Shown: positions 5,072 through 31,786 of the stretch, piece by piece | Layout of the letters: each line of letters starts with the position of its first letter | Numbering within the stretch: the first letter of the stretch is position 1 | Assembly (NCBI GenBank): GCA_028291515.1 | Contig: JAQGHU010000103.1 | Location: forward strand, 1 to 64,000 | Length of the DNA: 64,000 nt | Direction of reading: 5' to 3' | Source of the DNA: Schlesneria sp. | GTDB taxonomy: Bacteria > Planctomycetota > Planctomycetia > Planctomycetales > Planctomycetaceae | Translations under genes and position numbers: made by a program | Notes under the pieces: model-generated | Told to the model about the DNA's origin: nothing | Seen by the model: only the letters and a program-made list of their open reading frames with translations | Databases searched by the model: none

Positions 5072-6124
5072 ATGCGATTGGGCACTGCGTCCATTGCTGT
5101 TGCCGTACTCGCGGCTTCGCTGGTGATGGCCGACGACAAGCTCGACGAGACCAAAGCAGTCGAAAAAATTGAACTGCTCGGCGGCAGCGTCATCAGAGAT
5201 GCCAAGTTGCCAGATCGGCCTGTGATCGTCGTCCATTTGCAGCGGAGCAAACAATTCAGCGACGAAGACATGGGTCTGCTCGTCGCCTTCCCAAGCCTGA
5301 TCAGGCTCACTCTGAATGGTCAAATTACGGATGTCGGCCTCAAGGAACTACGCCGACATTCGAAGCTGACACAGCTTGAACTCAGCAGTTCTCAGATCAC
5401 AGATAAGGGCATGATTGAACTCCGGGAACTCAAGGGGCTGACGGACCTCGGCCTCAACCACACGCGGATTACGGATGCGGGTCTGCGAGAACTCCGTGGC
5501 TTCAAAAACCTGACGGCACTCCTGCTCGCCCGCGCCAACATCACCAATGCCGGCCTGATTACTGATGCCGGCCTAATTGAACTCAAGGATCTCACAAGCT
5601 TGAAAACCCTCGGCCTCGGTGGCACTCAAATTACGGGGACTGGCCTGGTTGAACTTAGAGAACTGAAACAACTGACGGTACTCGATCTCGGCGATACGCA
5701 AATCACCGACATGAGTTTAAAAGAACTCCGTGATTTCAAGCATCTCTCGACTCTAAGGGTTACTCGCACTGGAATCACTGATGCTGGCCTGGTTGAACTC
5801 AAGGATCTCCAGAATCTGGCCGACCTCGGTCTCAGTGGCACTCAAATTTCGAATGCTGGCGTGGTTGAACTCAGAGAACTCAAACAACTGACAAAACTCG
5901 ACCTCAGCAATACGCAGATTACCGACGTGAGCTTAAAACAACTCCGTGACTTCAAGCATCTGTCGAGTCTGAATGTTTCTCGGACCGAAATCACGGATGC
6001 GGGCCTGACTGAACTCCAAGAACTCAAGAATCTGAAATCGCTGGATCTCAAGAAAACGCAAACCACTGATGCAGGGATCAAGAATCTCCAAGAGGTTCTC
6101 CCAAATCTGACTATTCGCCGATGA
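5072..6124 (+). CDS. secreted leucine-rich-repeat protein
   Basis: A 350-residue protein with a signal peptide (A-S-I-A-V-A-V-L-A-A-S-L-V-M-A-D-D). From about residue 60 to the end it is a continuous run of about eleven 23/24-residue repeats of the pattern L-x-x-L-x-L-x-x-T-x-I-T-D-x-G-L-x-E-L. These form a curved solenoid used for protein contacts. There is no catalytic domain and no C-terminal anchor, so it is probably periplasmic or surface-exposed. One repeat carries an extra six residues (I-T-N-A-G-L followed by I-T-D-A-G-L) from an 18-bp microduplication at about 5546-5578. Confidence 0.85.
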   Translation: MRLGTASIAVAVLAASLVMADDKLDETKAVEKIELLGGSVIRDAKLPDRPVIVVHLQRSKQFSDEDMGLLVAFPSLIRLTLNGQITDVGLKELRRHSKLTQLELSSSQITDKGMIELRELKGLTDLGLNHTRITDAGLRELRGFKNLTALLLARANITNAGLITDAGLIELKDLTSLKTLGLGGTQITGTGLVELRELKQLTVLDLGDTQITDMSLKELRDFKHLSTLRVTRTGITDAGLVELKDLQNLADLGLSGTQISNAGVVELRELKQLTKLDLSNTQITDVSLKQLRDFKHLSSLNVSRTEITDAGLTELQELKNLKSLDLKKTQTTDAGIKNLQEVLPNLTIRR

Positions 6125-8504: not shown

Positions 8505-8834
8505 TCGGATCTCGAAGACAAGGATCGCTGGGAGTTCTATGAGTTGCGCAGATCGTCACATCGGGGCCATTCCTTTGCAGAGCCCCCTTCGCGCCGTTTT
8601 GGAAGAGATCTCCCGAATCGTCCGTAATCTATATAAATTTTCTGCAAATACGCGAGCAAGTTCCAGCGAATCGTGCGGCGCGAATCAGATCTGGTGCGCA
8701 AATCGTCCTAATGACTGCGCGAACACCGGTTGTGAACTTTCGCCGCCAAGAGACAATTTGACGATGTCCGCAATGCCGAATCTTGTCGGTTACTGCAGTG
8801 ACGATTTGTCCGATTCTTTCCAGAGGGGTCTGAA
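8505..8834. other. divergent intergenic region between xylR and the DUF1559 gene
   Basis: 330 bp between divergently transcribed genes, hence expected to hold both promoters. A plausible + strand promoter is listed separately (8609-8637). No small gene is supported. Confidence 0.5.
8609..8637 (+). promoter_or_regulatory. candidate sigma-70-type promoter for the DUF1559 gene
   Basis: TTGGAA (8609-8614), 17-base spacer, TATAAA (8632-8637), in a locally AT-rich stretch. It would give a leader of about 190 bases before the ATG at 8835. Planctomycete promoters are poorly characterised, so this is tentative. Confidence 0.3.
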
Positions 8835-9947
8835 ATGTTGACGACAGCCACGCGCAAACGGAAGGGTTTTACTCTGATTGAACTACTGGTCGTAATCGCG
8901 ATCATCGCTGTTCTGATTGCCTTATTGCTTCCTGCCGTACAGCAGGCTCGCGAGGCCGCTCGACGAACACAGTGCCGCAACAATCTGAAGCAACTCGGTC
9001 TGGCATTTCACAATTACATCAGCAGCCATCGAATGACGCCACTGCACGAGTTTCGCGCGGCGTCAGACTATGCGGGAGGCAATGGCGTGGCTGGCTATAA
9101 GTCATGGTACTGCGGAATTCTGCCTTACATCGATCAGGCCCCGCTTTACAACATGCTGAACTTCTCCAACGGCGAAGGATGGACCGCGTTCGCTGCCGGG
9201 TCGTCACCGCAAATGCAGGTGTCTCGCGTGCAAATTGCCGGGTTCAAGTGCCCATCGGAATCCCAAGTGAATGCGACACAAGGGATCAACTCCGCCAACT
9301 TCAACTATCTCGCCAATGCAGGGAGACCTCGCAACTTGCTGAGGCCTGGCACTCCCAGCACTGGCGGTGCGGCTCCGCCAGCATCGAAGGGAATTATCTC
9401 GATGTCACGTATGACCCCGGGCGGCCCTTACAGTGCCAACTGGCGATCCACAACAAATCAAGCCTTCTCGATCGACGGTGTCACTGACGGGACTTCGAAC
9501 ACGGCGATGATGAGCGAATCGATGGTCAGCAACGGCACCACCAGCAATAAAGACAATCGACGGAATCTGTGCTACACGAACTCGGCGATGATCGAGCAAT
9601 ACGACGCCTACATGGACGCCGTCGTCCGAGACGGACTTTCGGGCTCCGTCAACTGGGGTGACTGGACCCAGTACAAAGGTCTGTCCTGGATGTATTCGGA
9701 CGCTTGGGAAAAGCACGTCTATGCACACTTGTTTCCACCAAACACCGTCAACATCGCCGCGTACGCATCAGACACCTTTCGCTGCTATGAAGGTGACGGA
9801 GGCATCACGGCTTCCAGTGAACATGTGGGTGGCGTGCACGTAGCCATGATGGACGGTTCCGTCCGTTTCGTTTCCAACTCCGTCGATCTCGGCGTCTGGT
9901 GGGCCGTCGGCACCAAGGCCGAAGGCGAAGTTGTCGGTGACTTTTAG
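8835..9947 (+). CDS. DUF1559 domain-containing prepilin-like protein
   Basis: A 370-residue protein with a textbook type IV prepilin N-terminus: short basic leader (R-K-R-K-G), cleavage expected after Gly-11, then F-T-L-I-E-L-L-V-V-I-A-I-I-A-V-L-I with Glu at position 5 of the mature form. It continues L-P-A-V-Q-Q-A-R-E-A-A-R-R-x-Q-C-x-N-N-L-K-Q, the start of the planctomycete DUF1559 domain. The C-terminal H-V-G-G-V-H-V-A-M-M-D-G-S-V-R-F matches the H-x-x-G-x-x-x-x-x-x-D-G motif of this family. Planctomycetes encode many such pseudopilin-like proteins; roles in secretion or surface structures are assumed. Its TAG stop falls on the first bases of an interspersed repeat. Confidence 0.95.
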   Translation: MLTTATRKRKGFTLIELLVVIAIIAVLIALLLPAVQQAREAARRTQCRNNLKQLGLAFHNYISSHRMTPLHEFRAASDYAGGNGVAGYKSWYCGILPYIDQAPLYNMLNFSNGEGWTAFAAGSSPQMQVSRVQIAGFKCPSESQVNATQGINSANFNYLANAGRPRNLLRPGTPSTGGAAPPASKGIISMSRMTPGGPYSANWRSTTNQAFSIDGVTDGTSNTAMMSESMVSNGTTSNKDNRRNLCYTNSAMIEQYDAYMDAVVRDGLSGSVNWGDWTQYKGLSWMYSDAWEKHVYAHLFPPNTVNIAAYASDTFRCYEGDGGITASSEHVGGVHVAMMDGSVRFVSNSVDLGVWWAVGTKAEGEVVGDF

Positions 9948-10040
9948 AGCGCATCCCACATAACGGTGGCGTCCCGCGAGCAGAAAATCCACTTAGTCTA
10001 ACCCATGTTTCAACGCGACACGTAAGTGCTATCAGCACTA
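9947..10040 (+). repeat. interspersed ~93-bp element, copy A
   Basis: Starts AGAGCGCATCCCAC and ends in the hairpin AGTGCT-ATC-AGCACT (10025-10039). It aligns along its length with 22824-22915 and with the reverse complement of 31591-31683; all share GTGGCGTCCC, a TAGTCTA/GAGTCTA core and TTTCAACGCGACAC. Compared with copy B the hairpin stem differs by a paired change (G-C to T-A), so base pairing is preserved. Confidence 0.85.
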
Positions 10041-10222
10041 GTGCTGCATCAGAACATGATTCGCGCGCAGTCAAGCTCGCCCGGAGACTCAGGGTCTTAG
10101 GACGCACGACAAGGCCAATACCCGTATCACGTGTTGTTGACGACGTACTTAGTCCGGCCGCCATGGTGACGGCGGCTGGTGGAAGTCCGTGACGACCCAT
10201 CTCATGCAGGAGGAAGGTTGCG

Positions 10223-10651
10223 ATGCCACAATTACGGGGACCCTCCCGGTTGGCTATTGCCTGTGCGTTGATGCTCCTTGCGATCTGCGGCTGCGGATCG
10301 AAGGGAGATCAGACGGCCAATCGACTCAAAGACATGACCTACACCGTCGAGAATCTGGCTAGCGAAGTGGAAGGTCGCCTGAAGGAAATCGATCGCCGCG
10401 CCGCCCGTAAAGAGCCAGAAGCCAATGATCCCGGCGACGCACCAGTTGGCGAGAGGCACCGATCCAGCGGTCCGGGCGGGTATCCGTTCACGATCGAACG
10501 GGTTGGCGAAGATGTCGCTCACAAACTGAAGATGATCGACAGCAAGCAGCCAGCAGCCGCCCTTGAAAAGTTGACGCGGCAGTTGAAGGAAAAAGGGATC
10601 ACCGAAGAAAAGCTCGCCGCCCTGGTTGCTGCCGTCAAAGAATATCAATAG
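10223..10651 (+). CDS. small lipoprotein with helical C-terminus
   Basis: A 142-residue protein with a lipoprotein-type signal peptide (A-C-A-L-M-L-L-A-I-C-G-C-G-S; Cys-24 the likely lipidation site). Helical, charged stretches follow: one near residues 35-65 (T-V-E-N-L-A-S-E-V-E-G-R-L-K-E-I-D-R-R) and another at the C-terminus (L-E-K-L-T-R-Q-L-K-E-K). These flank a Pro/Gly-rich linker. AGGAGGAAGG lies 6 bases upstream of the ATG, a strong start. I recognise no family; it is probably a membrane-tethered periplasmic protein. It is followed 66 bp later by the metallophosphoesterase gene, possibly co-transcribed. Confidence 0.75.
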   Translation: MPQLRGPSRLAIACALMLLAICGCGSKGDQTANRLKDMTYTVENLASEVEGRLKEIDRRAARKEPEANDPGDAPVGERHRSSGPGGYPFTIERVGEDVAHKLKMIDSKQPAAALEKLTRQLKEKGITEEKLAALVAAVKEYQ

Positions 10652-10717
10652 CGTCAGAATCGCCTGCTCAGCGACTTTAACCTTCTTAAAACGTGATCAT
10701 TCGAAGAGGAGATCTCG

Positions 10718-11629
10718 ATGTCATTTGCTCGACGTTCGTTCCTGCAATCTGTGTTTGGAGGAATGGGGCTGTGGTCTGGGATGGGGGCGACAAGCCGGGC
10801 CGCTGAAGACCTCCAACCGTTTGTGGCGGCGTTTTTGACCGATACACATCTTCCCGGTGGGAAGCCTGAAGTTGCCGAACGAGTTGCCGGGTTGATTGAC
10901 TCTATTCAATCGCGACCAGCCCCACCGCAACTCTTTATCTTCGGCGGCGACAACGTCATGGCGGTCGATGGCAACCAGACCAACGAACAGACCGACGAAC
11001 AGTTCCGCCTCTGGAACGACACGGTCATGAGTCGATTGAAATCCCCCAGCGTCAGCGTAATCGGCAATCATGACATCCGCTGGAAGGATCGCGTGGCCGA
11101 CAAGCCAGAGGAGTACCAGGAGAAGGCGCGAGCCATCGCCACTTATAAAATGCCGTCGCGGTTCTACCGGAAAGAACATGGCGGATGGACGTTTCTGCTG
11201 CTCGACACGTACCAGCACTCAGGCTGCGAACTCGACGAAACTCAGTGGACCTGGCTGAAGGAACAGTTGCAACAAGGTGACTCTCCGGTGTGTGTCGTGA
11301 CTCATGCTCCGCTGATGTCGGCGACTCACTTTCTCGAACCGAGCACCGATCGCGGCAAGGGGTACAGCATCCCCTCAGGTTGGTCACCACAGGGACTAAC
11401 TAAATTCCGGGCGATGTTCCAGGAATTCCCCCGAGTCAAGCTTTGTCTCAGCGGTCATATGCATACGTGCGATCGAGTTGAAATCGATCAAACGGCATAC
11501 GTTTGCGGGGGCGCGGTCAGTGGCAACTGGTGGGGAAAAGGAGACTATCTCGGTTTCGGTCCAACCTGGGTCGAGCTGAAACTCTTCCCAGACGGTCGCT
11601 GGACGCACACACTCCAGAAGTGGTCGTAG
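10718..11629 (+). CDS. Tat-exported calcineurin-like metallophosphoesterase
   Basis: A 303-residue protein with a twin-arginine type signal (A-R-R-S-F-L-Q-S-V-F-G-G, processed near A-T-S-R-A-A-E). The metal-binding motifs of the calcineurin-like phosphoesterase superfamily appear in order: D-T-H (Asp-42, His-44), G-G-D-N (76-79), G-N-H-D (116-119), a central His in V-V-T-H-A-P, and G-H-M-H near residue 250. This is a complete dinuclear metal site, so the protein should hydrolyse a phosphomonoester or diester in the periplasm. The substrate cannot be told. AGAGGAGAT precedes the ATG. Confidence 0.9.
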   Translation: MSFARRSFLQSVFGGMGLWSGMGATSRAAEDLQPFVAAFLTDTHLPGGKPEVAERVAGLIDSIQSRPAPPQLFIFGGDNVMAVDGNQTNEQTDEQFRLWNDTVMSRLKSPSVSVIGNHDIRWKDRVADKPEEYQEKARAIATYKMPSRFYRKEHGGWTFLLLDTYQHSGCELDETQWTWLKEQLQQGDSPVCVVTHAPLMSATHFLEPSTDRGKGYSIPSGWSPQGLTKFRAMFQEFPRVKLCLSGHMHTCDRVEIDQTAYVCGGAVSGNWWGKGDYLGFGPTWVELKLFPDGRWTHTLQKWS

Positions 11630-11656
11630 CCATCTGGACAGCCGACCCTTACCCGA

Positions 11657-11684
11657 GAGCCTGGTCCTGGGACCACCCAGGCTC
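11657..11684. terminator. hairpin between metallophosphoesterase and Rieske genes
   Basis: GAGCCTGG (11657-11664) and CCAGGCTC (11677-11684) form a perfect 8-bp stem with a 12-base loop, 27 bases past the metallophosphoesterase stop. There is no T-tract, so termination is uncertain. Confidence 0.35.
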
Positions 11685-11714
11685 ACGACACGACTATCCG
11701 ATGGGGCAACTTGA

Positions 11715-12935
11715 ATGATCGATTTGGCCGAACTCCCGCCGCGACCCGCCTGGCACACGTTGCCCGGCCAGTACTATGGCAACCCCGCGATCTACCAGCA
11801 GGAACTGGCTCGAATCTGGAATCGCGGCTGGTTGTTCATTGCTCCCTCGTGCGAGCTGCCAAATGCCGGCGACTATCTCACTCTTTCCGTCGATTCCTCG
11901 CCGATTCTACTGTTACGCGGCGAGGACGGCGTGCAGGCTTTTCACAATATCTGTCCTCATCGCGGATCACTCCTCTGCGACAAGCCATCGGGACACACTG
12001 GCCAGGTCCTGGTCTGTCCGTATCATCAATGGTCATTCTCGCGCGATGGGAAGTTGCACGCCTGTCGCGGTATGCACGACTGCGACACATCAGCCCTGGG
12101 CCTGCAGAAGATTGCCACGATTACTGTCGCAGGCCTGGTGTTCATCAACCTGGCTGACGAACCTATCGATCCAAAGCCATTGCAACAGCTATTCGCCGCC
12201 GCCGAACCGCACGGTTTCGAAGTCGCAAAAGTCGCCCACGCAATCGACTATCGAGTCGCTGCCGACTGGAAGCTGATCTGGGAAAACAATCGCGAATGCT
12301 ATCATTGCGATGCTGGCCATCCGCAATATGTTCGAGCGAATTTTGACATCGCCGAAGGAGATCGCGACACACCGCTGTCTCGAGCCGCCCAGACCGCCGT
12401 CCTCGCTCGCACGTCCGCCTATTGGGACGCCGAGGGGCTGTCGTTGAAGCATGTCACTGGTGGATTGGCAAGCTATCCCGATCCGGATGACCCGTGCCCA
12501 TTTCCTGTCTCGGCAACTCGGACAGTCCAGGTGGAGGGGTACCAGACCGAATCGCTCGACGGCCAGCGTGTCGCTCCGTTCATGGGACGACTGCAATCGC
12601 CCGATGTCGGAGTCCTTCGGTTGCGGTCCATCCCCAGCTTCTGGTGCCACGCCAGTTGCGATCACGCCGTTCTCACCCGAGTCCTGCCAGCGGAATTGGG
12701 TGTGACGAACATCCGAGTCACCTGGCTGGTGACAAGGGACGCCAAAGAACTCATCAATTATTCACTTGATCGGCTGCTTCCCTTCTGGCAGCTTACCAGC
12801 GAGCAAGATTGGGAAATGTGCGAGCGACAGGCCAAAGGGGTCAATTCGCGTGCCTATCGTCCGGGGCCATTGTCAAAAGTCCGTGAATACAACGTCGAAG
12901 CTTTCTATCATTGGTATCTCGCCCGCCTTCGCTAA
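11715..12935 (+). CDS. Rieske [2Fe-2S] aromatic-ring/quaternary-amine oxygenase, alpha subunit
   Basis: A 406-residue oxygenase of the ring-hydroxylating dioxygenase alpha family. The Rieske cluster ligands are present as Cys-80/His-82 (C-P-H-R-G) and Cys-101/His-104 (C-P-Y-H). The mononuclear iron site shows N-N-R-E-C-Y-H-C-D-A-G-H, with His-197 and His-202. Full length for the family. The pattern I-W-E-N-N-R-E-C-Y-H-C resembles the branch acting on quaternary amines (carnitine, choline, betaine) more than aromatics, but that is inference. No reductase partner is adjacent. Its 3' end overlaps or abuts the DUF5690 gene, suggesting translational coupling to a possible transporter. Confidence 0.9.
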   Translation: MIDLAELPPRPAWHTLPGQYYGNPAIYQQELARIWNRGWLFIAPSCELPNAGDYLTLSVDSSPILLLRGEDGVQAFHNICPHRGSLLCDKPSGHTGQVLVCPYHQWSFSRDGKLHACRGMHDCDTSALGLQKIATITVAGLVFINLADEPIDPKPLQQLFAAAEPHGFEVAKVAHAIDYRVAADWKLIWENNRECYHCDAGHPQYVRANFDIAEGDRDTPLSRAAQTAVLARTSAYWDAEGLSLKHVTGGLASYPDPDDPCPFPVSATRTVQVEGYQTESLDGQRVAPFMGRLQSPDVGVLRLRSIPSFWCHASCDHAVLTRVLPAELGVTNIRVTWLVTRDAKELINYSLDRLLPFWQLTSEQDWEMCERQAKGVNSRAYRPGPLSKVREYNVEAFYHWYLARLR

Positions 12936-22443: not shown

Positions 22444-22823
22444 GGGATCATGCGGCGGCGGCTAAAACCGAAACGCTGGCAGCCGAACAAACAAAAGTGC
22501 TCACCGATACGGCAGCGGAGATCGCGTGCTCACCGTCGGCCAAAGCATTGTTGACCGCCGGCGCGACTCAATTCCCTATACGAGAAGGTCCGCGACTTTC
22601 CGCTCGATAGATGAATTGCATCCCCGACTTTTGTCGGAGCAACTTAAACACAGCCGATAGTATCACCCACTTTGACGAAGTGTTGTGTGAGAGACGACCA
22701 GTGCTTCTTACGTTGTCGAGGCAGTTCAAGAACTGGCGGCGCAATCCCGGGACGATGTTGACGCCCTTAAACCGGATCCTCTCTGGAAAAGCCCGGTAGG
22801 AATTCCAGCGATGGCCGCGATTA
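22444..22823 (+). pseudogene. coding-like fragments, no intact gene
   Basis: Two short open segments look like gene debris. One (about 22450-22608) runs directly on after the preceding stop and encodes an Ala/Thr/Glu-rich helix (K-T-E-T-L-A-A-E-Q-T-K-V-L). The other (about 22690-22823) encodes S-Y-V-V-E-A-V-Q-E-L-A-A-Q-S-R-D-D-V-D-A and runs into the interspersed element. Neither has a start or a ribosome-binding site. I infer a degraded gene interrupted by the element. Confidence 0.35.
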
Positions 22824-22915
22824 GAGCGCATTCCACCTCACTGTGGCGTCCCACGAGCGGAAAACCACTGAGTCTACGCCTATTTCAACGCGACACGGAA
22901 GTGCGACCCGCACTA
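22824..22915 (+). repeat. interspersed ~93-bp element, copy B
   Basis: Begins GAGCGCATTCCACCTCACTG, contains TTTCAACGCGACACGGAAG and ends with the hairpin AGTGCG-ACC-CGCACT (22900-22914) followed by A. It has the same orientation as copy A. The terminal CTA (22913-22915) is the complement of the TAG stop of the leftward gene that ends here. Confidence 0.85.
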
Positions 22916-23617
22916 GCTATCCGATTTGGAGTCGCGAACCTGGACCTGCAAGGCTCCCAGCATCTTGGTGATAGCGGTTTCTTTCTTGTCGATCCCCAGC
23001 ACTGTCTCCAGGACGAATGCTCGGGGTTCGTTGCTGGGGTGAATGATCAGGCGGCCGCTTCGCAGCAGCATGTATTCGAAAACATCGTCAATCTCTTTGC
23101 TGATCCGCAGATTCGGAGCGGAATAGCGTTCGAGGTTGCTGAGGAAGCCGTGGTGATGCAGCAGCTCGTTCGGGCGGACTTCCCAGTAGTCGAACCGGAT
23201 GTTGATCATCATCGCGACGTAAAGCAGCGACAATATGGTCACAATTCCAAAGTAGAAGGTCGCATTCGCTCTCGGGTTGACCGAATTCACGATCTTGGTC
23301 AGCGCGGGCAACAGGGTGGGGACATAGACCGAAGTCAGCACGGTCCCCATCACAATGACCAGGAACACGAAGAACAGGTTGAGCGATGTCGTTCGCGGAA
23401 AATCAAACGCGAGCACAACCAGATTCACGCCCGTAATCGTGAGAAACGCGATACCGACGCCCTGACAGTAGACGCTTTCTTCACCCAGAATCAGCATCAG
23501 CACGCCGGCAAGGATCGCCATCAGATAGGTGGGATACAGGATCACGATTTTTGGATACGAGACCAGAATGATCGGTTTGGCCGAGTCCTTCTGGCTGGAT
23601 GGAAGCGGTGCAGTCAC
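22913..23617 (-). CDS. multi-pass membrane protein of unknown function
   Basis: 234 residues. Four membrane segments occupy about residues 20-150 (including Y-L-M-A-I-L-A-G-V-L-M-L-I-L-G and F-F-V-F-L-V-I-V-M-G-T-V). A soluble C-terminal domain follows with R-F-D-Y-W-E-V-R-P-N-E-L-L-H-H-H-G and a second stretch R-S-G-R-L-I-I-H-P-S-N-E-P-R-A-F-V. The start is a GTG at 23617 with GGAGA 8 bases upstream. The stop codon lies inside repeat copy B. I recognise it only as the type of conserved membrane protein seen in planctomycetes; no function is assigned. Confidence 0.75.
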   Translation of the reverse strand: MTAPLPSSQKDSAKPIILVSYPKIVILYPTYLMAILAGVLMLILGEESVYCQGVGIAFLTITGVNLVVLAFDFPRTTSLNLFFVFLVIVMGTVLTSVYVPTLLPALTKIVNSVNPRANATFYFGIVTILSLLYVAMMINIRFDYWEVRPNELLHHHGFLSNLERYSAPNLRISKEIDDVFEYMLLRSGRLIIHPSNEPRAFVLETVLGIDKKETAITKMLGALQVQVRDSKSDS

Positions 23618-30062: not shown

Positions 30063-30186
30063 GTTGGACGACTCACGAGGCAGAGACTGCGATTGACACG
30101 CGGGGCGGTGCCCACGCGGTTAAACGAGGGACAACAAACTATTGATGCTGGCGTACGCACGGCCACAACGGTAGCTTTGCCGCACC

Positions 30187-31593
30187 ATGCAAAGCGATCT
30201 GTACCATCTGGCAGTTCTGTTTGGCAGTTTGGCGCTGCTGATGACCCTGGTCGTACGCGGCAAAAGCATCTTCGTGGTCGCTCCACTGTGTGCCGTACTG
30301 GCTCTAACGCTGAGTGGTACGGACCCGGTTGCGGGGATGAACGGGCCCTATATGACTGGGTTCGCCGACTACGTGCGGCGCTTCTATCTGATCTTCGCAC
30401 TCGGTGCCGTCTTCGGAAAGGTGATGGATGAGTCGGGGGCGGCTATCTCGGTGGCGAATAACGTGGGACGCTGGCTGGGGACTCAACGGGCCTGCTTGTC
30501 GGTCGTGCTGGCGTGCGCCTGCCTGACGTACGGCGGAGTCTCGTTGTTTGTCGTTGGGTTCTCGGTCTATCCGCTAGCGGTGCAACTGTTTCGCTCCGCG
30601 AACCTGCCGCGTCAATTCATCCCTGCCGCAATAGCGTTCGGGTCGATCACATTCACGATGACATCGGCGGGATCTCCCGAGATCCAGAACCTGATCCCGA
30701 TCAAGTACCTCATCGACGCGGAGGGCAAACCTCTGACCGACGCTCGCGCGGGTTGGCAGGTGAGCTTGATCGTGGCCTTTCTCATGTTTGCGATCGGGCA
30801 GTTGTATCTCGACCGCGTCATTCTTCGTGCCGTTGCAGCCGGTGGAAAGTTTGAACCACGCGACAGCGATCGCCCCGCGGTTACCGCGGATACAGCGGGG
30901 AATCCTGGCTTTGTCTCTGCCGTCGCCCCGTTGGTCGCGACTTTGTTAGCGCTAAACCTGATTCCCGCGCTGTGTCTTAAGTACCGGGACTCGATACCCG
31001 AGCAGACTTGGTCGATCGTGAAAGCTGTTATCCGGAATTATCCTGAAGACGGAACGCTGGCCATCTTCATCGGGGTCATGGTTGCCGTCGTCTTGCATCG
31101 CAAACGCCTGCACAACGTTTGGGGCTGCTTTGGTGATGGATTCGTGAATGGGTTATTGGCGGTCGGTTCGACGAGCGCTGTGGTTGGCTTTGGTTCCGCC
31201 GTGAAAGATCTGCCCGCGTTCCACTTGGTCGTGCACTGGGTGACTCACTTACCTGGCGACCCCTTAATCAGTGCCGCGTTGGCCGTGGCGGTGATTGCTG
31301 GCATCGCGGGATCGGCCTCGGGCGGTCAAGGGATCGCTCTCCCCATCATCAAACCGATCTATATCGATGAGTTGGGCGTGAGCGCCCGAGCACTCCATCG
31401 AGTCATCGCGATCTCATCCGGATCGCTCGATTCGCTTCCTGCGAACGGCTACCTGGTAATGTTGATCCGTAACATCTGCGGCGAAACGCACGCCAGATCC
31501 TATGGTCCGATCTTCGTAACCACAGTCCTTGTTCCGACCGCTGGAACGGCCATCGCGATTGCTCTGTTCAAATGGTTTCCGCAATGGGGTTAG
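30187..31593 (+). CDS. GntP-family permease
   Basis: 468 residues with about 12 membrane segments and no signal peptide. The order of hydrophobic blocks and motifs such as G-G-V-S-L-F-V-V-G-F-S-V-Y-P-L-A, A-I-A-F-G-S-I-T-F-T-M-T-S-A-G-S-P-E and G-S-A-S-G-G-Q-G-I-A-L-P fit the gluconate/H+ symporter (GntP) family. That family also includes permeases for other hydroxy acids, so the substrate is open. It is separated from cphA by a strong terminator and is therefore its own unit. The TAG stop is the first three bases of repeat copy C. Confidence 0.88.
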   Translation: MQSDLYHLAVLFGSLALLMTLVVRGKSIFVVAPLCAVLALTLSGTDPVAGMNGPYMTGFADYVRRFYLIFALGAVFGKVMDESGAAISVANNVGRWLGTQRACLSVVLACACLTYGGVSLFVVGFSVYPLAVQLFRSANLPRQFIPAAIAFGSITFTMTSAGSPEIQNLIPIKYLIDAEGKPLTDARAGWQVSLIVAFLMFAIGQLYLDRVILRAVAAGGKFEPRDSDRPAVTADTAGNPGFVSAVAPLVATLLALNLIPALCLKYRDSIPEQTWSIVKAVIRNYPEDGTLAIFIGVMVAVVLHRKRLHNVWGCFGDGFVNGLLAVGSTSAVVGFGSAVKDLPAFHLVVHWVTHLPGDPLISAALAVAVIAGIAGSASGGQGIALPIIKPIYIDELGVSARALHRVIAISSGSLDSLPANGYLVMLIRNICGETHARSYGPIFVTTVLVPTAGTAIAIALFKWFPQWG

Positions 31594-31683
31594 TGCGGGT
31601 CGCACTTCCGTGTCGCGTTGAAACACGGGTTAGACTCAGTGGTTTTCTACTTGCGGGACGCCACAGTGAGATGGGATGCGCTC
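31591..31683 (-). repeat. interspersed ~93-bp element, copy C (inverted)
   Basis: Reverse complement of copies A and B. On the + strand it opens TAGTGCGGGTCGCACT, so the hairpin AGTGCG-GGT-CGCACT (31592-31606) overlaps the stop codon of the GntP permease. It contains GTGTCGCGTTGAAAC and ends GGGATGCGCTC. Confidence 0.85.
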
Positions 31684-31690
31684 CAGATTA

Positions 31691-31786
31691 GTGTAGACAA
31701 CACACTCCGTATGCTGAGCGTATTCGATAATTACGAAGTCCAAGACAATCTGAAAGCACTCAGCACACGGAGTGTGCTGTCGACGT
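31691..31786. repeat. imperfect long inverted repeat (~30-bp arms)
   Basis: The left arm 31691-31720 and right arm 31757-31786 are complementary at about 24 of 30 positions, including a 10-base block CACACTCCGT and its complement. The loop is 36 bases. It sits directly beside repeat copy C, so two different repeat elements are stacked in this gap. It may be a small non-autonomous mobile element or a structured RNA. Confidence 0.65.

Follow-up and report, generated by a model that had tools for sequence, protein, structure and literature searches.

A dispersed repeat of about 93 bp in Schlesneria, probably a MITE of the IS630/Tc1-mariner type, whose TAG ends often coincide with stop codons of flanking genes

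A short repeat that occurs three times in the 64,000-nt stretch of Schlesneria DNA analyzed here (the window) belongs to a family of dispersed copies in which both ends read TAG; for 52 of 119 clean copies, a flanking gene as predicted with a codon-scored caller has this terminal TAG for its stop. The simplest account of this family is a MITE of IS630/Tc1-mariner type. We consider it very likely that the element is such a non-autonomous MITE, moved in trans by a DDE transposase of that type, and that it is not a structured RNA. It is defined by its ends and its target, that is by the TA within YTAR, the terminal repeats, the empty site in a relative and the reuse of stop codons.

Copies, ends and insertion sites

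The first-pass annotation of the window reported three copies (9947-10040, 22824-22915 and, inverted, 31591-31683), which indeed align with each other from end to end. Its description of a dispersed element in many copies, with a terminal hairpin that is conserved, was correct: a stem of 6 bp with a loop of 3 nt is found at the right end of all three, twice as AGTGCG-ACC-CGCACT and once as AGTGCT-ATC-AGCACT. The CCAC...GTGG stem near the other end is present as well, but it does not mark a separate second element as had been suggested, since it sits inside the left terminal repeat. That both ends of the element read TAG had escaped notice (Table 1).

Table 1. Element copies and adjoining predicted genes in the window
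Feature	Position	Strand	Remark
Element copy 1, TA to TA, 96 nt	9945..10040	+	left TAG 9945-9947 is the stop of gene 8835-9947
Copy 1 right-end hairpin AGTGCT ATC AGCACT	10025..10039	+	
Copy 1 CCAC...GTGG, within left terminal repeat	9956..9969	+	
Element copy 2, TA to TA, 94 nt	22822..22915	+	right-end CTA 22913-22915 is the TAG stop of minus-strand gene 22913-23617
Copy 2 right-end hairpin AGTGCG ACC CGCACT	22900..22914	+	
Element copy 3, inverted, 95 nt	31591..31685	-	right-end TAG (+ strand 31591-31593) is the stop of gene 30187-31593
Copy 3 right-end hairpin	31592..31606	-	
Predicted gene, N-terminal methylation motif and DUF1559 (PF07596)	8835..9947	+	stop from copy 1
Predicted gene, 234 aa, no Pfam match	22913..23617	-	stop from copy 2
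GntP-family permease gene	30187..31593	+	stop from copy 3

The window lies on contig C66 of a genome of 8.59 Mb in 119 contigs (G000), where further copies are abundant and far beyond chance: 40 of the 82 first-look candidates were scored, and all 40 had E-values of 6.2e-25 or better. The examined stretches of G000 contain 76 distinct copies, and two pattern searches of this genome pointed to further places beyond the first search. The prediction of hundreds of copies per genome was nevertheless too high, as our searches suggest roughly 80, a figure from which very diverged copies may be missing. Forty genomes were searched (G000, 14 others of the genus and 25 more distant ones), and the element was present in G000 and in seven of the 14 congeners and in none of the 25 distant genomes. 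First-look candidates numbered 95 in G012, 45 in G013 and 27 in G007, where they are more diverged, and G004, G005, G008 and G011 gave a single match each. Altogether 140 distinct copies were collected from the examined loci of these eight genomes. Insertion sites are shared with examined G000 sites in 6 of 23 cases for G012 (two of the six matching on one flank only), in 1 of 20 for G013 and in 0 of 17 for G007.

Sixty-two copies could be anchored at both ends, and these typically span 95 nt from TA to TA (range 82-96). The TA is intact on the left in 52 and on the right in 56 of them, and 53 have Y outside the left TA together with R outside the right one. By junction class they divide into TTAG (25), TTAA (10), CTAA (10), CTAG (8) and others (9), and no flank consensus wider than YTAR was found among them. 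The terminal repeats are imperfect, with 19 of 28 positions matching when the left end of the consensus, TAGAGCGCATCCCACCTAACTGTGGCGT, is compared with the complemented right end, TAGTGCGGGTCGCACTTCCGTGTCGCGT; the hairpin belongs to the right repeat and occurs on that side only. Between the ends the consensus varies from genome to genome, with the blocks GGCGTCCCGCG and ACGCGAC mostly retained. The element is short, carries no transposase gene and is present in many dispersed copies.

Empty sites support insertion at TA, and one of them is clean on both sides. When locus L284 of G012 is compared with the copy at locus L074 of G000, homology extends to query position 903 and resumes at 993, and the two pieces of homology overlap in G012 by 4 bp (CTAG). 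In L074, 95 nt from TA to TA replace the TA of G012, which amounts to a clean 93-bp insertion with duplication of the TA. Moreover, in L284 two convergent open frames overlap by this same CTAG, and in L074 both C-termini and both TAG stops are retained. The comparison at copy 3 is clean on one side only, the far flank being diverged. There the GntP protein ends in ...FPQWG followed by TAA in G012, which has no element, and, in the window, by the TAG that the element supplies; the G013, G011 and G001 orthologues stop at the same glycine, with TGA, and those in G006 and G014 end two residues later. The other (left) terminal TA of copy 3 has decayed to TG. At copy 2 the element is also present in a near relative (L191), and a more distant one (L192) is empty, with a left flank too diverged and a protein one residue shorter than that of the window. 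No empty site for copy 1 appeared among the matches listed for window positions 8600-12900, which included the N-terminal part of many DUF1559 genes and other copies of the element.

We infer the enzyme, its chemistry and the role of selection as a filter from these features. An element of typically 91 bp, which with the duplicated TA makes a net 93 bp, would be acted upon in trans by a putative IS630/Tc1-mariner-type DDE transposase. The enzyme would bind the imperfect terminal repeats of ~28 bp and insert the element at the TA within the palindromic YTAR target. Insertions within genes would mostly be lost by selection, and those in stop codons and other intergenic positions would survive.

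Terminal TAGs as stop codons

Because a G follows the TA at both ends of the element, a TAA or TAG stop that is hit at its TA is rebuilt as an in-frame TAG, and the gene product is consequently left unchanged. A gene with the element in its stop codon therefore appears to be unharmed, and all three window genes of Table 1 end in such an element-end TAG. The 119 clean copies are the 140 minus 21 with short flanks or unclear ends, and with the codon-scored caller the copies at stops are distributed as 25/66 in G000, 11/20 in G012, 10/18 in G013, 6/13 in G007 and 0/2 in the others. As background, the same stretches contain 897 coding and 624 intergenic YTAR sites and 94 at stops, so that 94 of 718 non-coding sites lie at stops. 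When copies are set against this background, the contrast of stop and intergenic positions gives a Fisher odds ratio of 5.2 (p 1.7e-13), although p-values should be taken as guides only since copies share ancestry and gene calls are approximate. The excess holds in convergent regions (35/52 copies against 46/145 background sites, odds ratio 4.4) as well as in tandem regions (17/49 against 47/321, odds ratio 3.1). With a cruder longest-ORF caller the copies at stops number 23/63 in G000, 12/22 in G012, 11/17 in G013 and 3/6 in G007. Among 72 G000 copies, open frames of at least 150 codons reach the terminal TAG in frame 0 at 10 ends on the left and 19 on the right, compared with 0 left and 3 right in each of the other two frames, some right ends being mis-anchored. 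Both ends are used as a stop (21 left and 34 right; binomial p 0.10). The remaining 67 of the 119 copies lie away from stops, 14 of them between divergent genes.

Damage to genes was looked for in several ways. No intact ORF called by the codon-scored caller spans the element in any of the 119 copies, but this test is weak because the stops within the element would break a gene in two. The cruder caller places 3 of 63 G000 copies inside a longer ORF, and a search for split genes returned 5 of 119 copies with coding-like open frames on the same strand abutting both ends, four of which are in the stop class. Split genes thus concern at most 5 of the 119 copies, and possible gene damage is not zero; the strictest count of undamaged stop insertions is 48/119. 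In six of the 119 copies a gene ends inside the element, five of these being outside the stop class. Compared with 897 coding sites among 1615 background YTAR sites, the avoidance of genes is still strong.

It could be hypothesized, within the MITE explanation, that the stop excess is a mere by-product of TA insertions filtered by selection, measured against a background that is understated as small genes are missed. We give this hypothesis an even chance. It agrees with a target that is just YTAR, and the cruder caller raises the background to 71/372 non-coding sites at stops in G000, as against the overall proportion given above. The size of the odds ratios, overall and within convergent and tandem regions, argues against it, as does the finding that 47 of 112 copies are still at stops when the seven rows that belong to loci with shared-site partners are left out. 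The opposite hypothesis is that the insertion machinery is drawn to stop codons, for example by terminating ribosomes, transcript ends or local DNA structure, and that the TAG ends evolved in the element and its IS630 relatives as a strategy of harmless insertion, including insertion at the 4-bp CTAG overlap of convergent genes; this we regard as unlikely. The copies of the MITE can be counted, which makes it a suitable case in which to ask whether the choice of target is itself 'safe' or whether selection brings this about. A mobile element whose ends double as stops may make itself harmless, and in this way dozens of copies may persist in a genome dense in genes. In annotation, such repeats determine where many genes of these genomes end on the 3' side.

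A search of the literature (titles and abstract openings) returned nothing on this 93-bp repeat or on MITEs of Schlesneria, and as far as that search shows the repeat family, the measured stop-codon excess and the double restoration of stops at a CTAG overlap are new here. The supply of TAG by repeat ends as such is already reported, for the GTAG REPs (PMC3733652).

Candidate transposases and related systems

Matches to IS630 transposases (DDE_3) number five in G000 and fifteen in seven relatives; copy-rich G012 has one weak match only (E 2.4e-4, below the cut-off). Nine IS630 loci were checked for pairs of ends, and one of them, L176 of G011, has ends like those of the element; the ends of L103 and L183 are clear but unlike, and at the remaining checked loci the pairs were weak or absent. 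The IS630 transposon of L176 measures 1026 bp from TA to TA, and its ends, TAGAGCGTTTCCACGCTCAG and TAGAGCGGTTCCACGCTACT, match each other at 16 of 20 positions. Compared with the G007-type left end, each is identical at 18 of 24 positions; the figure for the G000-type ends is 12-15 of 24 only. Two overlapping ORFs of L176 match the IS630 family model NF033545; the second exceeds the cut-off and the first does not. In G000, L102 begins TAGAGCGCGTTCCC, and its left end has TAGAGCGC in common with the element; the element, L102 and both L176 ends also have GCG at positions 25-27. On these comparisons the ends of the element appear partly similar to IS630 transposon ends. In two of three IS630 copies examined (L176 and L102, not L101) the terminal TAG is likewise the stop of an upstream ORF. 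The transposases of L101, L102 and L176 are all split over two frames at an A-rich stretch, presumably as for programmed frameshifting.

No autonomous element with the full terminal repeats of the MITE itself was found. Among the five DDE_3 loci of G000, L101 has different ends of its own, L103 has unlike ends and L102 has a like left end for which no right end was found; L104 and L105 were covered by a scan for the left-end motif only. L043 at first resembled a longer candidate whose left end was set apart; it turned out to be a copy with another inverted-repeat insertion within it: at 1060-1576 of that locus the copy is interrupted by ~0.4 kb with inverted ends GGTAGTGACCAGCAT and ATGCTGGTCAGTACC, another small mobile repeat. 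In L023 (1594-1715) the right flank of a copy corresponds to the left end of the L101 IS630 transposon (at 994), an arrangement of adjacent insertion at a shared TA.

The closest analogue is RUP of Streptococcus pneumoniae, an AT-rich element of 107 bp that is described as short and non-autonomous, with ~110 copies, a TA target and IS630-like terminal repeats, and for which a partner common in the same species, IS630-Spn1, has been proposed (PMC2229807, PMC3049150). Unlike RUP as described there, the present repeat is visibly rich in G+C and has ends that serve as stop codons, and a full partner was not found. ISY100, a bacterial member of the Tc1/mariner/IS630 group, is reported to insert almost only at TA, with duplication of the TA, and to have imperfect ends of 24 bp (PMC2170065). 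Target, duplication and imperfect terminal repeats of comparable length are features that the present element has in common with it, but in contrast to the autonomous ISY100 it is too short for a transposase gene.

A further possibility is a repeat of the REP/TIR type moved by a Y1 (RAYT/TIRYT, HUH) transposase, in which case the hairpin would be the recognized palindrome and TAG part of the tag. Duplication of the TA and repeats at both ends, as observed here, are not known as a Y1 pattern, and we hold this origin to be improbable. What speaks for it is the likeness of a hairpin beside TAG to the GTAG REPs, palindromes of 20-40 bp with a GTAG tag that are linked to Y1 transposases and whose ends often give flanking ORFs a TAG stop (PMC3733652). 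Unlike these REPs as there described, the element mostly has YTAG, is ~93 bp long and has terminal repeats at both ends and a TA duplication. Of the 62 ends on each side, 60 on the left and 55 on the right have C or T, not G, before TAG; a REP/REPIN would be expected to have a GTAG or CGTC tag beside its palindrome. Matches to Y1 transposases are present (13 in G000, 4 in G012, 6 in G013 and 5 in G007), and one such locus, L314, adjoins a copy of the element; however, this is 1 of 28 Y1 loci, on one side only, and ~0.4 would be expected in G000 alone from copy density. The copy concerned (L314, 1311-1409) stands beside a RAYT-like Y1 gene (C32:98958-99299) whose frame probably ends at the element.

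The hairpin and nearby repeats

The compensatory change between window copies had been read as the signature of selected RNA or DNA structure, a claim that is unsupported as stated since covariation is weak and RNA folding ordinary. The innermost hairpin pair does covary: of 120 near-full copies, drawn from seven genomes, 111 have a standard pair there, compared with 86 on average and 98 at most in shuffles. Five of the six pairs, all but this one, stay inside their own shuffle ranges. In APC-corrected covariation the innermost pair ranks 5th of 4465 column pairs, behind four that are not base pairs, and the remaining hairpin pairs rank 375, 383, 1505, 2277 and 3539. The bulk of the signal comes from one subfamily with a TATCA core (10 copies in G000 and 2 in G012), and five copies have a broken T-C pair. 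Nor does the loop change freely, as had been stated; ATC in the loop and the T-A pair occur together for the most part, as a single haplotype. Changes on both sides that preserve pairing are found in isolation in three copies of G007 and, at pair 1, in one copy of G000, and these compensated pairs are weak support for pairing. The hairpin may be maintained to some degree. Local correction of palindromes is perhaps the sole reason that it is kept. Our results suggest some caution with small covarying hairpins in repeats, which can mark a subfamily of transposon ends and not an RNA structure.

Least probable of all, by a small step, is a functional RNA or a 3'-UTR/terminator kept at gene ends, with a hairpin that aids transcription end or mRNA stability: the stop excess within both convergent and tandem regions would fit, and pairs 2-6 of the right hairpin are all standard in 31 of 34 copies with the right end as stop, but they are about equally intact elsewhere (70/85), either end can serve as the stop, most copies lie away from stops and some between divergent genes, the consensus has no U-run after the hairpin, fold energies are ordinary (z from -2.05 to +0.66 in 8 sequences) and consensus folds differ between strands and genomes. 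The window gave no Rfam match at gathering thresholds.

Several other repeats are present in the window. At 30092-30132 lies a palindrome-like repeat of ~35 bp, a separate dispersed repeat that is found many times in G009 and once in G012. An inverted pair built on ACACTCCGTGTGC at 31700-31780 (2 matches, with as many in 9 of 100 shuffles) is perhaps another REP-like palindrome, and a related motif, GCACACKGAGTGTGC, occurs in 8 of 329 examined loci, some of them overlapping. The window also contains an exact tandem duplication of 31 bp (1011-1072) and, inside the ORF at 5072-6124, an array of 10 copies of a 72-nt repeat with one spacing of 90 (5324-6035).
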